This document shows positions 7,822 through 16,090 of a stretch of 57,350 bases of DNA, piece after piece (positions within the stretch are counted from its first letter, which is position 1; every line of letters starts with the position of its first letter). Where the stretch lies: NCBI GenBank assembly GCA_003576845.1, contig QEVJ01000031.1, positions 1 to 57,350 on the forward strand. Direction: 5' to 3'. The DNA is from Planctomycetota bacterium (GTDB taxonomy: Bacteria > Planctomycetota > Planctomycetia > Pirellulales > PLA5). Both the position numbers and the translations under genes were made by a program. The notes beneath the pieces are model-generated. The model saw only the letters and a list, made by a program, of their open reading frames with translations. It had not been told where the DNA came from and made no database searches.

Positions 7822-10008
7822 ATGACCACTGCGCTGCTGACGCTTGACGCCTTGCCGCCCAAAGTGGGCGTGGGCGCGATCGTGCGGTTTGTTTGCGACA
7901 CTGCGGGCGTCGATTCGCAGCGCCTCGGCAAGGTCGATCTCGCCGGCCGGCGGGCGACGGTGGAGGTTCCTGCCGAATGGGCGGCGCGGCTGGTCAGGCT
8001 GCTCGACGGGGCTCGATTCAACGAGTCCAACGTTCGCGCGCGCTGCGACGTGCCCAGCGACGGCGGGCCAAAGCCGGTTCGACCGGGAAGCGAGGACCAC
8101 TTCGCCCGGCTAGCTCGACTGTTGCGATTGGAGTCCGAAGCCGCGGCGGAAAAGGCTCGCGAAGACGCCGCAAGACGTACCGGCGAAGCTGCCGAGCGAA
8201 CCGGCGAGAGTCTCGTGGGCCTGGTCGTGCGCGATGAAGAAACTGGACTGGGTGGCCGCGCGCTCGTGACGCTCGGCAAGCGCGACGTGAATCGGCGCTT
8301 GCCGTGGACGCGGCTGGGCGTCGGCTCGCCCGTCGTGCTGTCGGAAGAGGGCGCGAAGGCGGCGCTGGGCTGGCGCGGCGTCATCGCGGATCGTTCGGCG
8401 AATACGATTCAAGTGGCGCTGGCCGACTTCCCGGAGCTCTCCGACGATCGGGCAACGTTGCGGCTCGATGCGTCGGTCGACGAGATTGCGCGGCAGCGGC
8501 AACTCGATGCTCTGTCGCGTGCCACTGCGGCCCGCGGCGAACGGTTGGCGGAGCTGGTCCGCGTTTTGCTCGGGGAGAGGTCGCCAAAATTTCGCGACGC
8601 GACGCGCATCGAAACGGCGGAGCGGGCGGCGACTAGTTTACTCAACGACTCCCAGCGCGAAGCCGTCCGGCTGGCTCTGGCGGCCGGCGACGTGGCGATC
8701 ATTCACGGTCCGCCGGGGACGGGCAAGACCACGACCGTCGCCGAGTTGATTCGCCAGGCCGTCGCGCGGGGCGAGAAGGTTCTCGCCTGCGCGCCGAGCA
8801 ACCTCGCCGTCGACAATGTCCTCGAACGCTTGCTGGCCTTGAACGTGCGGGCCGTTCGATTGGGACATCCGGCGCGCGTCTTGCCGGAGTTGCGGGCCCA
8901 CACGCTCGACCTGCTCGTCGACGAGCACGAAGACGTTAGGCTCGCTCGCAAGCTGGTGCAGCAGTCGCGCAAGCTGTTCGACAAAGCGGGGAAATACACG
9001 CGGGCCAAACCGGCGCCGGGCGCGCGGCGCGAGATGCGCGACGAAGCCAAGGCGCTGCTCGCCGATGCCCGGCGGCTCGAAGCGCAAACCGTCGAGCAGA
9101 TTCTCGACGGGGCCGACGTGTTGTGTGCGACGCTTACGGGCATCGACAGCGAAGTCGTCGGTCGGCGGCGGTTCGACCTGGCCGTCATCGACGAAGCGTG
9201 CCAGACAGTCGAACCGGCGTGTTGGATTCCGCTGCTCCGCGCCGAGCGGGTCGTGCTGGCCGGCGATCATTGCCAATTGCCGCCGACGATCGTTTCGGTC
9301 GAGGCGGCCCGCGAAGGATTCGGCGTGAGCCTGCTCGAACGGATGGTCGCGATGCACGGCGCGACGATTACCCGGCGGCTCGACGTGCAATACCGCATGC
9401 ACGCGTCGATCGCCGATTTTTCATCGGCGGAGTTCTACGACGGGACCCTCGCCGCGCACGATTCGGTCGTCGGGCACCTGCTCGCCGATTTGCCGGGCGT
9501 CGAGTCCTGCGAGTTGACGACGACGCCGGTCGAGTTCATCGACACGGCGGGCGCCGGCTACGACGAAACGCAGGAGGACGAAGGCGCAAGCCGCCTCAAC
9601 CGCGAAGAGGCGGAGCTCGTCGCCAAGCGCGTCGCCGCGTTGCGCTCCGCGCGGGTTGCGGCACGAGACATCGCCGTGATCTCACCCTACGCGGCACAGG
9701 TCCGATTGCTGCGGGACCGGATCGACGCGGCGATCGAAGCAGGCGACGCGATCGAAATCGACACGGTCGACGGCTTTCAAGGCCGCGAAAAGGAAGCGGT
9801 CGTCATCTCGCTCGTCCGCTCGAACGCGACGGGCGACATCGGCTTCCTCGCCGACACCCGCCGCATGAACGTCGCTCTCACCCGCGCGCGGCGGAAGCTG
9901 ATCGTCATCGGCGACAGCGCGACGATCGGGGGGCAGGCGTTCTACGGGCGGTTTCTCGAGCACGTCGAGCGCATCGGAGCGTATCGGACGGTGTGGGAGG
10001 AATGTTAG
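7822..10008 (+). CDS. UPF1/SMUBP-2-like superfamily 1 helicase with a DbpA-type RNA-binding N-terminus
   Basis: 728 residues. A TAG stop lies directly in frame before the ATG at 7822, so the start is fixed. Helicase motifs run in order: GPPGTGKTTT (Walker A, about 296-305), VIDEACQTVEP (motif II, about 453), GDHCQLPPTI (motif III), VQYRMH (motif IV), DTVDGFQGREKEAVVIS (motif V) and NVALTRARRKLIVIG (motif VI). This is the IGHMBP2/UPF1 group of ATP-driven RNA/DNA 5'-3' helicases. Residues 11-75 (VGVGAIVRFVCDTAGVD, LGKVDLAGRRATVEVP, then LVRLLDGARFN) fit the small RNA-binding domain found at the C-terminus of DEAD-box DbpA, an unusual place for it. The two domains are joined by a charged helical linker (about 92-130). 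It may act on structured RNA such as rRNA; that is inference. Confidence 0.88.
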   Translation: MTTALLTLDALPPKVGVGAIVRFVCDTAGVDSQRLGKVDLAGRRATVEVPAEWAARLVRLLDGARFNESNVRARCDVPSDGGPKPVRPGSEDHFARLARLLRLESEAAAEKAREDAARRTGEAAERTGESLVGLVVRDEETGLGGRALVTLGKRDVNRRLPWTRLGVGSPVVLSEEGAKAALGWRGVIADRSANTIQVALADFPELSDDRATLRLDASVDEIARQRQLDALSRATAARGERLAELVRVLLGERSPKFRDATRIETAERAATSLLNDSQREAVRLALAAGDVAIIHGPPGTGKTTTVAELIRQAVARGEKVLACAPSNLAVDNVLERLLALNVRAVRLGHPARVLPELRAHTLDLLVDEHEDVRLARKLVQQSRKLFDKAGKYTRAKPAPGARREMRDEAKALLADARRLEAQTVEQILDGADVLCATLTGIDSEVVGRRRFDLAVIDEACQTVEPACWIPLLRAERVVLAGDHCQLPPTIVSVEAAREGFGVSLLERMVAMHGATITRRLDVQYRMHASIADFSSAEFYDGTLAAHDSVVGHLLADLPGVESCELTTTPVEFIDTAGAGYDETQEDEGASRLNREEAELVAKRVAALRSARVAARDIAVISPYAAQVRLLRDRIDAAIEAGDAIEIDTVDGFQGREKEAVVISLVRSNATGDIGFLADTRRMNVALTRARRKLIVIGDSATIGGQAFYGRFLEHVERIGAYRTVWEEC

Positions 10009-10093: not shown

Positions 10094-12903
<2,810 letters not shown>

Positions 12904-13186
12904 CGCACCACGACGCACCACGTCGAGCGGCCTTCGACCGCCGAGTGGGTTCGCGGTGGAAGGCCAATGCGAAGCACGGATGGGAGAACGCCGGCGCTGC
13001 GCGGGACGCACGCGGCGCCGGCGAGGTCTGGATCGTTTCTTGATTCGCGAGGTGGCCGATTTTGCTTCTGGCGGAGCCAATTATCTGGTAAAATGAGGCC
13101 GCGGCGTGGGGGAATCAATCCGCACAACCCCCCGTTGTTTCTAAGGGGTGCTGCGGATTAATTCGCTCCGTCGAGGGGTTCGCACG

Positions 13187-16090
13187 ATGGGCGGTTGTCG
13201 GCGACTTCGCTGGAGCGTGAGTCTTTGTGCCCTGGTCTTGGTGGCGTCGCGCACCGTGGCGGCGGAACCGGCGGCGGAGGTCGATTACAACGCGGCGATC
13301 GGACCGCTGTTCGCCAAATACTGCGTCGCGTGTCACGGTGCGGAGGAGCCCGAGGGCAAGCTCGTACTCGAAAGCTACGAGGCGCTGCTTCGCGGCGGCG
13401 CGAAAGGCGCGGTCATCTCGCCGGGCAAGGCGGACGACAGCCGCATGGTTCGGATGCTGACGGGAGCGGCCAAGCCCGTCATGCCGCCGGACGACAGCGA
13501 GCGACCGACCGCCGAGGAGATTGCCGCGCTCAAGAGGTGGATCGACGCCGGGGCGAAAGGTCCGTCGGGCGCCGCGCCCGACCCGACGGTGCTCGTCGTG
13601 CCGAAGATCGAGCCGAAGGGAACCGCCGCGCCGGCGATTTCGGCGCTGGCGGCGTCGGGCGACGGGAAGCTGCTGGCGATCGCGCGGCGGAAGGAAGTCG
13701 AGATCGTCGAGGTTGGCGGTTCGCGTCGCGTGCATGTGTTGTCGGGATTCGCCGGGTCGGCGAGCTCGCTGGCGTTTTCGCGAGACGGCAAGCACGTCGT
13801 GGCGGCCGCCGGCGAGCCGGGCTTGTTCGGCGAGGCGGTCGTGTGGAACGTCGGAGACGGCAAGGCGACGGCGAAACTGCGCGGACATCGTGACGCGCTG
13901 TATGCGGCCAAGCTCAGCCCCGACGGGGCGCTGCTCGCCACGGGCAGTTACGACCAGAAAGCGATTCTGTGGGATGTTGCGACCGGCAAACCGCGGCACA
14001 CGATCGACCGCCACAACGGCGCCGTGTTCGATCTCGATTTCAGTCCGGACGGCAAGCTGTTGGCGACCGCGAGCGCGGATCGGACGGTGAAGCTCTGGAA
14101 CACCGCCACGGGCGAGCGGCTCGACACGTTTGGGCAGCCGCTCAAGGACGTCTATTGCGTGGCGTTCAGTCCCGACGGCCGCCGCGTTGCGGCCGGCGGC
14201 GTCGATCGGCGGGTGCGCGTGTGGGAAATCGCGGCGGAAGGGCGCGAGGGGACGAACCCGCTCGTCTATTCGCGGTTCGCCCACGACGGCGCGGTGCTCA
14301 AGCTCGCGTATTCGGCCGACGGCAAGACGCTCGTCACGGCCGCGGAGAATCGCACCATCAAGATTTGGAACGCCGCGACGATGACGCCGCGGCGAACACT
14401 GGAGTCGCAGCCGGACATTCCTTCCGGCGTCGCGCTGTCGGCCGATGGGAGCAAGCTGTACGTCGGACGGCTCGACGGTTCGCTGAAGACGTATGAGCTT
14501 GGCGGTGATGCAGTCGCGGCGGCGGCGGTCGATGCGGCAGTTGTCGAGGACGCGAACGCATTTCCACTGGGATCATTGCCGGCGGATGTTCCGGCGCCGG
14601 CGCTTGCCGATCCCGTCGCGGAAGTCGAGCCGAACGATGCACCGGTGAATGCGACGACGCTGGCGTTGAGCGCGAACGGCGCGGTGGCGACGGGGCGGAT
14701 TCATGTGGGCGACGGAGCGAACGTCAGGAAGGTCGACGCCGATCTGTATCGTTTAGCGGCAAAGCAAGGCGAAACGTACTTCATCGAAACGAGCGCGGCC
14801 CGCGAGCAGTCGCCGTGCGACACGAAGATCGAAGTGCTCGACGCGATGGGCAAGCCCGTGCCGCGGATGCTGCTGCAAGCAGTGCGCGATTCGAGCGTCA
14901 CGTTTCGCTCGGCCGATGCGAATCAGACCGGCTTTCGGATCACGAACTGGGAAGAGATGGAACTCAACCAGTACCTTTACGTCGGCGGCGAGGTTTGCCG
15001 GCTATTTCGATTTCCGCAAGGGCCGGATAGCGACTTTTTGTTTTACGAATCGAACGGCCGCCGGCGGGCGTACTTCGACACGACAGCCACGGCCCACTAT
15101 CTCGACGAGCCGGCTTATATCGTGCGGCCGCTTGCCGTCAGCTCGAACCCGATACCGACGGGCTTGCCCGTGTTCGAGCTGGGCTACGTGAACGACGACA
15201 GCGGCGACCGCAAGCTGGGGACGGACTCGCGATTGACGTTTACTGCGCCGGCCGACGGTGATTATCTCGTCCGCGTGAGCGACACGCGCGGCTTTGGCGG
15301 CGAGAAGTTCGGGTATCGGCTTACGGTGCGGCGGCCGCGTCCCGATTTCGCGATTTCCTTCGGCGACCGCAATCCGACCGTCAACGCGGGAAGCGCGAAG
15401 CGGTTCGTCGTGCGGGCGGAGCGGATCGACGGGTTCGATGGCGAGATCCGCGTCGACATTACGGGCGCGCCGCCGGGATTTGCGATCGCTTCGCCGCTGG
15501 TTATCGAGGCGGGGCAGGACCGGGCGTGGGGCGTCGTTCATGCCGCCGCGGAAGCGTCCGCGCCGAGCAAGGAGAATGCGGCGGGGAGCAAAGCGACGGC
15601 GCGGGCGACAATCGGCGGGCGCGAGATTACGAAGACCGTCGACGCGCTCGGCGAGATCAAGCTGGCCGCGAAGCCGAAGCTGCTCGTGCGGCTCGAACTG
15701 GATCGCCCGGAATTGACCGCCGCTTCCGGCGATGCGGCGCCGAAAGCGCCAAAACCGGGCGAAGGCGCGGTTGCCGAAACGACGGCTAGCGAACCGCCGA
15801 CCGTCTTGATCGCGCCCGGTACGACCGTTACCGCGCGGTTGGTGATCGAGCGCAACGGATTCGAGGGCGAAGTGAAGTTCGACGTCGACAACCTGCCGCA
15901 CGGCGTGATCGTCGACAACATCGGCCTGTCGGGCATTCTGATCACCGCCGACCGCTCGGAGCGGCAATTGTTCCTCTCGGCGCGCGATTGGGTTGGCGAG
16001 CAGTCGCGGCCGTTTCAGGCCGTCGCGCAAGCGGAAGGAAATCAGGCTTCGCTGCCGCTGCTGCTCAAGGTGGCCAGACCGGGCCAGTGA
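13187..16090 (+). CDS. Exported cytochrome c-like (PSCyt1 type) WD40-repeat protein
   Basis: 967 residues from the ATG at 13187, with GAGGGG 8 bases before it. Residues 1-26 are a signal peptide. A c-type heme site CVACH lies at 46-50, in VDYNAAIGPLFAKYCVACHG, and VMPPDDSERPTAEEIAALKRWIDAGAKGP closes the domain, as in planctomycete PSCyt1 proteins. WD40 repeats follow from about residue 150 to 450 (units such as LAFSRDGKHVVAAA and LDFSPDGKLLATASADRTVKLWN), then a region with VEPNDAPVNAT, like pre-peptidase C-terminal domains, and two or three beta-sandwich-like stretches. The protein is probably periplasmic, but its electron partner and function are not known. It ends 13 bases before the convergent giant gene. 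Confidence 0.9.
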   Translation: MGGCRRLRWSVSLCALVLVASRTVAAEPAAEVDYNAAIGPLFAKYCVACHGAEEPEGKLVLESYEALLRGGAKGAVISPGKADDSRMVRMLTGAAKPVMPPDDSERPTAEEIAALKRWIDAGAKGPSGAAPDPTVLVVPKIEPKGTAAPAISALAASGDGKLLAIARRKEVEIVEVGGSRRVHVLSGFAGSASSLAFSRDGKHVVAAAGEPGLFGEAVVWNVGDGKATAKLRGHRDALYAAKLSPDGALLATGSYDQKAILWDVATGKPRHTIDRHNGAVFDLDFSPDGKLLATASADRTVKLWNTATGERLDTFGQPLKDVYCVAFSPDGRRVAAGGVDRRVRVWEIAAEGREGTNPLVYSRFAHDGAVLKLAYSADGKTLVTAAENRTIKIWNAATMTPRRTLESQPDIPSGVALSADGSKLYVGRLDGSLKTYELGGDAVAAAAVDAAVVEDANAFPLGSLPADVPAPALADPVAEVEPNDAPVNATTLALSANGAVATGRIHVGDGANVRKVDADLYRLAAKQGETYFIETSAAREQSPCDTKIEVLDAMGKPVPRMLLQAVRDSSVTFRSADANQTGFRITNWEEMELNQYLYVGGEVCRLFRFPQGPDSDFLFYESNGRRRAYFDTTATAHYLDEPAYIVRPLAVSSNPIPTGLPVFELGYVNDDSGDRKLGTDSRLTFTAPADGDYLVRVSDTRGFGGEKFGYRLTVRRPRPDFAISFGDRNPTVNAGSAKRFVVRAERIDGFDGEIRVDITGAPPGFAIASPLVIEAGQDRAWGVVHAAAEASAPSKENAAGSKATARATIGGREITKTVDALGEIKLAAKPKLLVRLELDRPELTAASGDAAPKAPKPGEGAVAETTASEPPTVLIAPGTTVTARLVIERNGFEGEVKFDVDNLPHGVIVDNIGLSGILITADRSERQLFLSARDWVGEQSRPFQAVAQAEGNQASLPLLLKVARPGQ

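Follow-up and report, generated by a model that had tools for sequence, protein, structure and literature searches.

We report here a helicase gene of unusual composition in a planctomycete genome, in which profile matches and a predicted structure confirm that an N-terminal RRM of the DbpA type stands in front of an SF1 helicase resembling UPF1 and IGHMBP2. The gene lies in a 57,350-nucleotide stretch of contig QEVJ01000031.1 that was analysed as a whole and that we refer to as the window, and its features are listed in Table 1. The RRM-SF1B fusion is a new architecture assembled from known parts; searches of the open-access literature (subscription papers lay outside this scope) gave no account of an SF1/UPF1-like helicase bearing a DbpA-type RRM, and domain databases may list the arrangement without comment. 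On balance, we favor a model in which an SF1B motor is flexibly tethered to a DbpA-family RRM that would grip guanine-containing RNA, and so load the motor onto structured RNA or hold it there.

The gene encodes a 728-residue product with no internal stops in its translation, and because a stop codon lies immediately 5' of the ATG, an earlier start of the helicase frame is impossible. The earlier note had read the bulk of this product as an SF1 helicase of the UPF1/IGHMBP2 kind, and that reading is borne out by a TIGR00376 (IGHMBP2 family helicase) score of 533.5 bits against a cut-off of 348.9 (534.3 bits in the genome scan), and by scores above the cut-offs for PF13086, PF13087, and PF21138. 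The helicase begins at about residue 90 and includes a 1B domain and both RecA domains as recognized by Pfam, with intact SF1B motifs (I, GPPGTGKT; II, DEAC; III, GDHCQLPPT; V/VI, DGFQGREKEA and TRARRK) whose columns are invariant or nearly so in an alignment of 20 fused rows. The DEAD-box family PF00270 scores 21.5 bits, below its cut-off of 26, and covers residues 276–340 only, the core being of the AAA_11/AAA_12 type. The closest solved structures are those of human SMUBP-2/IGHMBP2 (4b3f and 4b3g), which has the same full SF1B core and 1B domain. Human IGHMBP2 carries C-terminal R3H and zinc-finger domains, whereas neither is seen here and the accessory domain is the N-terminal RRM; an R3H domain was not found among the best 25 Pfam families listed (E≤0.029), and the protein terminates right after the core. 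An R3H domain is not required of prokaryotic members of the family. A scan of this 7.05-Mb genome found this one IGHMBP2-family helicase only.

Table 1. Features of the fused helicase gene, with positions given in the window.
Feature	Residues	Position	Strand	Basis
Whole gene, RRM-SF1B helicase (IGHMBP2/TIGR00376 family)	1–728	7822..10008	+	728-residue ORF and TIGR00376 score
N-terminal DbpA-type RRM	3–76 (Pfam match 14–74)	7828..8049	+	PF03880, AF2, Foldseek, dN/dS
Helix-1 residue at the YxiN G423 position	R22	7885..7887	+	mapping checked on the YxiN chain 2g0c/3moj alignment
Phi-Gly-x-Phi turn	L35-G36-K37-V38	7924..7935	+	equivalent of YxiN I436-G437-x-I439
Flexible linker between RRM and helicase	78–88	8053..8085	+	pLDDT <50; dN/dS 0.74 (residues 77–92)
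SMUBP-2/HCS1-type 1B domain	99–202	8116..8427	+	PF21138 31.4 bits, cut-off 27
SF1B RecA1/RecA2 core	274–728	8641..10008	+	PF13086 and PF13087, each >200 bits

The earlier note had also placed a DbpA RRM at residues 11–75 and had staked this on a profile match and on an RRM fold in structure prediction, both of which were obtained; the domain is real, but its boundaries required correction to residues 14–74 for the Pfam match and 3–76 for the predicted fold. PF03880, the Pfam DbpA family, scores 36.3 bits in the full protein against a cut-off of 25.6 and 40.4 bits with the N-terminal fragment alone (36.3–41.2 across scans), and every one of the 20 rows in the fused-domain alignment matches it (E≤10). 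Of the order's 27 fused genomes, 26 exceed the curated cut-off and one (G476) lies slightly under it. The match starts at profile position 11, leaving strand beta1 of DbpA and its GGKKxK loop unmatched. AlphaFold2 predicts a beta-alpha-beta-beta-alpha-beta arrangement, that of an RRM, from nine homologous N-termini (mean pLDDT 86.8), and the same N-terminal elements in a full-length model from 22 sequences (mean pLDDT 87.0, with residues 78–88 at low confidence), both alignments including archaeal and Bipolaricaulota rows that are nearer to DbpA than the planctomycete rows are. Foldseek places DbpA structures at ranks 1–6 (E 8.7e-5 to 2.5e-4, rmsd 1.7–1.8 Å over 77 columns, 21% identity) and the YxiN-RNA complex 3moj at rank 12. 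VIA-align gives DbpA a Z of 11.7 that is tied with many eukaryotic RRMs, so that fold comparison supports an RRM and the assignment to the DbpA family rests on sequence. The top four PDB matches of the fused-domain profile are DeaD 5b88 and DbpA 7bbb and 7pli (E 0.001–0.008), with the Glorund qRRM in between, and profile-profile comparison with DEAD-box C-terminal domains gives a probability of 97.3 over residues 13–74. That a DEAD-box accessory domain was swapped onto an SF1 enzyme, as the earlier note put it, is something we infer; the fused domain is a divergent DbpA subfamily, and did not come recently from a DEAD-box gene. We also note that in the g2/g4 fused clade (L063–L066, L069–L071, L074, L076, L077, L079, and L080) the start of the RRM is RNP2-like, LHLRGLPPGTNRNQLFKLL in g4, and the loop preceding the last strand is three residues shorter.

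The residues expected to contact RNA suggest which parts of the DbpA mode of recognition may have been retained. In the published structural account (PMC3695512), DbpA-type RRMs have an RNA face centred on helix 1 and the Phi-Gly-x-Phi turn, the main-chain amides of the turn (I436, G437, and I439 in YxiN) read a guanine in both YxiN and Hera, and this is presented as the sole RNA contact common to the two domains. The same account describes a further nucleotide packed against helix-1 residues (G423 and T424 in YxiN), and basic helix-1 residues that drive RNA binding by the Hera RBD, which is structurally similar and yet has GGGPyr as its target instead of the hairpin 92 loop; the DbpA-type fold alone thus does not fix the target. 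The glycine of the turn, G36, is invariant: all 32 planctomycete/Chloroflexota fusions have it, as do all 25 DEAD-box domains and both archaeal/Bipolaricaulota rows. At the G423 position, by contrast with the Gly found in 25 of 25 DEAD-box domains (a reference of 25 of 62 loci, those in which the fused-domain HMM found the domain at E≤0.01, and hence biased towards the fused domain), none of the 32 planctomycete/Chloroflexota fusions has Gly and 24 have Arg or Lys; both of the two archaeal/Bipolaricaulota fused rows have Gly. An LPPRTT-type segment occupies the place of the N-terminal GGKKxK...RPGD loop of DbpA in the fused domains. The contact made by YxiN K427 is uninformative, since even the DEAD-box set does not conserve it. 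Most members have a domain whose net charge lies between near neutral and weakly positive.

These comparisons divide the suggestion of the earlier note, that the enzyme has an RNA and perhaps a ribosomal target by analogy with the binding of DbpA to 23S rRNA hairpin 92. Because the guanine-reading turn is kept, an RNA target is a reasonable inference and on sequence grounds a likely one, and guanine-containing RNA is a fair guess. Specificity for hairpin 92 (the A-loop) is not supported by the sequences, having been lowered by the helix-1 column test and with the GGKKxK loop gone, and a link of the fused helicase to the ribosome is possible.

The RRM is as constrained as the helicase core and is under purifying selection, and the linker is relaxed. 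One genome pair was compared, the window genome and G399 of the same genus, with synonymous divergence near 1; the 73 codons of the domain gave a dN/dS of 0.142, the 636 codons of the core 0.170, and the 16 codons of the linker 0.738. The fusion also recurs in related genomes, where the earlier note had thought it worth looking, and in other phyla. Within the order, 68 of 196 genomes have a close helicase (E≤1e-80), and among the 67 examined (G436 being omitted as a fragment) the domain is directly before the core and in frame in 27 and was not found in 40, one of which (G445) begins at a contig edge such that loss there is indistinguishable. The domain is thus dispensable for the core enzyme. 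Three helicases nested among fused ones, L045 and L047 (G404 and G418) and L046 (G395), start cleanly at the equivalent of residue ~88 with no recognisable RRM remnant upstream, and are apparent clean domain losses.

Searching the phylum with the fused-domain profile at E<1e-20 returned nine genomes only, eight of the order and G130, which also has a fused frame; the weaker matches that were read are DEAD-box C-termini (down to E 5.8e-11), lipoyl domains, and one apparent chance match. Fused helicases are present in Candidatus Anammoximicrobium (L102), Pirellulaceae (L103, identical in sequence to G508), Fimbriiglobus (L106), Gemmataceae (L109), Planctomycetaceae (L113, identical in sequence to G477), and a Chloroflexota MAG (L107), in whose class two of 150 genomes matched, the second fused genome (L291) scoring 35.3 bits with PF03880. 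The archaeon Candidatus Methanohalarchaeum (L124) has a fusion scoring 36.2–39.4 bits, and is the one genome with a fused helicase among 196 sampled from its phylum, 32 of which have a match, most of the others in DEAD-box-sized frames. In Bipolaricaulota, six of 100 genomes have the fusion; L144, L285, and L287 are above the PF03880 cut-off, L288 is slightly under it (25.1), and L286 and L289 have no PF03880 match at E≤1e-4, and an HMM of the DEAD-box domains recognizes all six (15–28 bits). On a helicase-core tree of 103 rows, 34 of them fused, the fused label needs at least seven changes, four of which are forced by well-supported branches, and the archaeal/Bipolaricaulota pair is apart from the planctomycete group. 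The tree was built without duplicates (L099–L101, L103, and L113), the fragment L126, five further Bipolaricaulota, and the second Chloroflexota genome, and remote rows below 43% identity were thinned to every fifth except for 13 chosen. We read it as compatible both with at least two captures of the domain and with one old capture followed by many losses.

The surroundings of the gene are variable. No neighbor recurs widely around 17 fused loci, and none of the neighbors ties the helicase to the ribosome. In the window the helicase is followed at 10094–12903 by a Fur-family regulator and a catalase-peroxidase, KatG (both named by eye from their translations), neither of which is at the corresponding place even in G399; there, the next conserved gene (window 13148–16090) is ~3 kb nearer to the helicase, and the Fur/KatG pair looks inserted or lost. 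At the Bipolaricaulota loci L285, L286, L287, and L289 the fused helicase adjoins a conserved membrane protein on the opposite strand, which by eye is rhomboid protease-like.

Two alternatives concern the nature of the N-terminal domain. In several genomes the fused-domain HMM matches the lipoyl domains that belong to dihydrolipoamide acyltransferases, and the N-terminus might be a decayed lipoyl/biotinyl-type domain and not an RRM. The resemblance is substantial, with an hhalign probability of 96.7 against ten lipoyl domains of the planctomycete phylum, a set picked because the fused-domain model matched them and so favoring this explanation; the controls, which comprised reversed profiles, 40 profiles shuffled by column, and 12 blocks of helicase core, are all at 4.0 or below, and for nine of the 34 fused domains the lipoyl model equals or outscores the DEAD-box-domain model. 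However, no lipoyl family is among the nine Pfam families matched (E≤10) by the alignment in which every row matches DbpA, AlphaFold2 yields an RRM, and the lipoyl alignment ends at residue 61 whereas that with the DEAD-box domains spans 13–74. Helical periodicity is seen in the helix-2 window of 30 of the 32 fused domains and of all 25 DEAD-box domains, as against three of the ten lipoyl domains, and the position of the lipoyl-lysine is Lys in one of 32 fused domains and Arg in this protein. We have mostly rejected a lipoyl origin, which we regard as very improbable, and retain the RRM assignment. The DEAD-box DbpA domains themselves resemble lipoyl domains weakly (probability 66), and at L269, L274, L275, L276, L277, L280, and L282 of the window's order PF03880 and the fused-domain HMM weakly match acyltransferase lipoyl domains; profile comparison indicates that the DbpA-lipoyl resemblance is not compositional, though the folds differ. 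A different proposal accepts the RRM but has it serve as a protein-protein interaction or autoinhibitory module in place of binding RNA. Many RRMs bind proteins, a good number of the fused domains carry a near-neutral charge, and the RNP positions of the beta-sheet are mostly non-aromatic in sequence. We nonetheless think this unlikely, as DbpA-type RRMs bind RNA on a face other than the beta-sheet, that of helix 1 and the Phi-Gly-x-Phi turn (PMC3695512), and the turn is invariant here.

Two further proposals concern the role of the whole enzyme. Were the RRM to target the helicase to 23S hairpin 92 as it does in DbpA, the enzyme would be a large-subunit assembly factor replacing DbpA. The domain belongs to the same family, PF03880, with the guanine turn kept, and a search of this 7.05-Mb genome gave no second DbpA-domain protein, its two short DEAD-box frames (436 and 440 residues) being without the domain. 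The raw count is striking, in that a separate strong PF03880 protein (E≤1e-18 outside the helicase; DEAD-box proteins make up most of such loci read in the phylum) is present in one of 27 fused and 18 of 40 unfused genomes (Fisher p 2e-4), but three phylogenetically independent pairs are too few, the sign test is not significant, and the near-exclusion may reflect shared ancestry. Moreover, 22 of the 40 unfused genomes are also without a strong PF03880 protein, and the helix-1 Gly beside the A-loop uridine is absent from all 32 fused domains, usually being a bulky basic residue, with the GGKKxK loop lost as well. Replacement of DbpA is a doubtful reading on these grounds. Membership of an anti-phage defence system, as for other bacterial UPF1-like helicases, has in its favor matches of the helicase core to the PADLOC MkoA and PDC-S37 models and to NCBIfam PLuB/ProA, together with the combination of UPF1-like helicases and RNA-binding domains described for CoCoNuT systems (PMC11090510). 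These matches are at the level of the core only and far under the NCBIfam cut-offs, the fused loci have no widely recurrent neighbor, and the gene persists by lineage and not in islands; we have rejected this proposal and give it very little weight. CnuH of CoCoNuT, according to that account, is like the fused enzyme a bacterial UPF1-like SF1 helicase linked with RNA, although CnuH has coiled coils and adjoining McrBC-type genes, none of which is seen here.

For the preferred reading of an SF1B motor tethered to an RNA-gripping RRM, several plausible steps can be drawn. The IGHMBP2/UPF1-like helicase would probably be a 5'-3' motor on RNA, or on RNA and ssDNA, to which the DbpA-family RRM would be tethered by the short flexible linker. 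The likeliest ligand of the RRM is guanine-containing single-stranded RNA, which it would grip by means of its Phi-Gly-x-Phi turn and basic helix 1; this grip would load the motor onto structured RNA or hold it there. A divergent or more general RNA (rRNA, mRNA, or other structured RNA) would be a likelier target than the A-loop of hairpin 92. Counted against the model are the near-neutral charge of the domain, the lack of a ribosome-linked neighbor at the fused loci, the lipoyl resemblance, the VIA-align tie, and the 40 of 67 order helicases in which the domain was not found; ssDNA, moreover, is among the substrates of UPF1-like helicases. Two reports (PMC11109757 and PMC9977310) link human IGHMBP2 to translation, and by this analogy a translation or ribosome role for the fused helicase is plausible.

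The model has a counterpart in DbpA, YxiN, and Hera, in which the same kind of domain on an unrelated DEAD-box motor does the job of loading the motor onto RNA or holding it there. Like DbpA and YxiN, the fused protein is a helicase with one tethered PF03880 RRM and a Phi-Gly-x-Phi guanine turn, although the motor is SF1B and not DEAD-box SF2, the RRM is N-terminal where theirs is C-terminal, and the helix-1 Gly and GGKKxK are not kept. The guanine-reading main-chain turn and a basic helix 1 are shared with Hera of Thermus (PMC3695512), whereas Hera has a DEAD-box motor, a dimerisation domain, and a C-terminal basic tail, and reads GGGPyr.

It is tempting to suggest, though we hold this tentatively, that prokaryotic UPF1/IGHMBP2-like helicases captured a DbpA-type RRM at least twice, in Planctomycetota/Chloroflexota and in Bipolaricaulota/Methanohalarchaeum, giving rise to an RNA-guided SF1B helicase in ribosome assembly or RNA surveillance. 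If true, such an enzyme would parallel in prokaryotes what human IGHMBP2 does in connection with translation, having taken its accessory domain from the DEAD-box assembly helicases. Accessory RNA-binding domains decide the substrate of a helicase motor, and a single such domain joined to an SF2 DEAD-box motor and to an unrelated SF1B UPF1-like motor, in lineages that are separate, offers a natural test of the extent to which targeting is set by the domain alone. No assigned function for prokaryotic IGHMBP2-like helicases was found in the open-access literature searched, and the fusion provides a handle both on these enzymes and on the tie of their human relative to translation.
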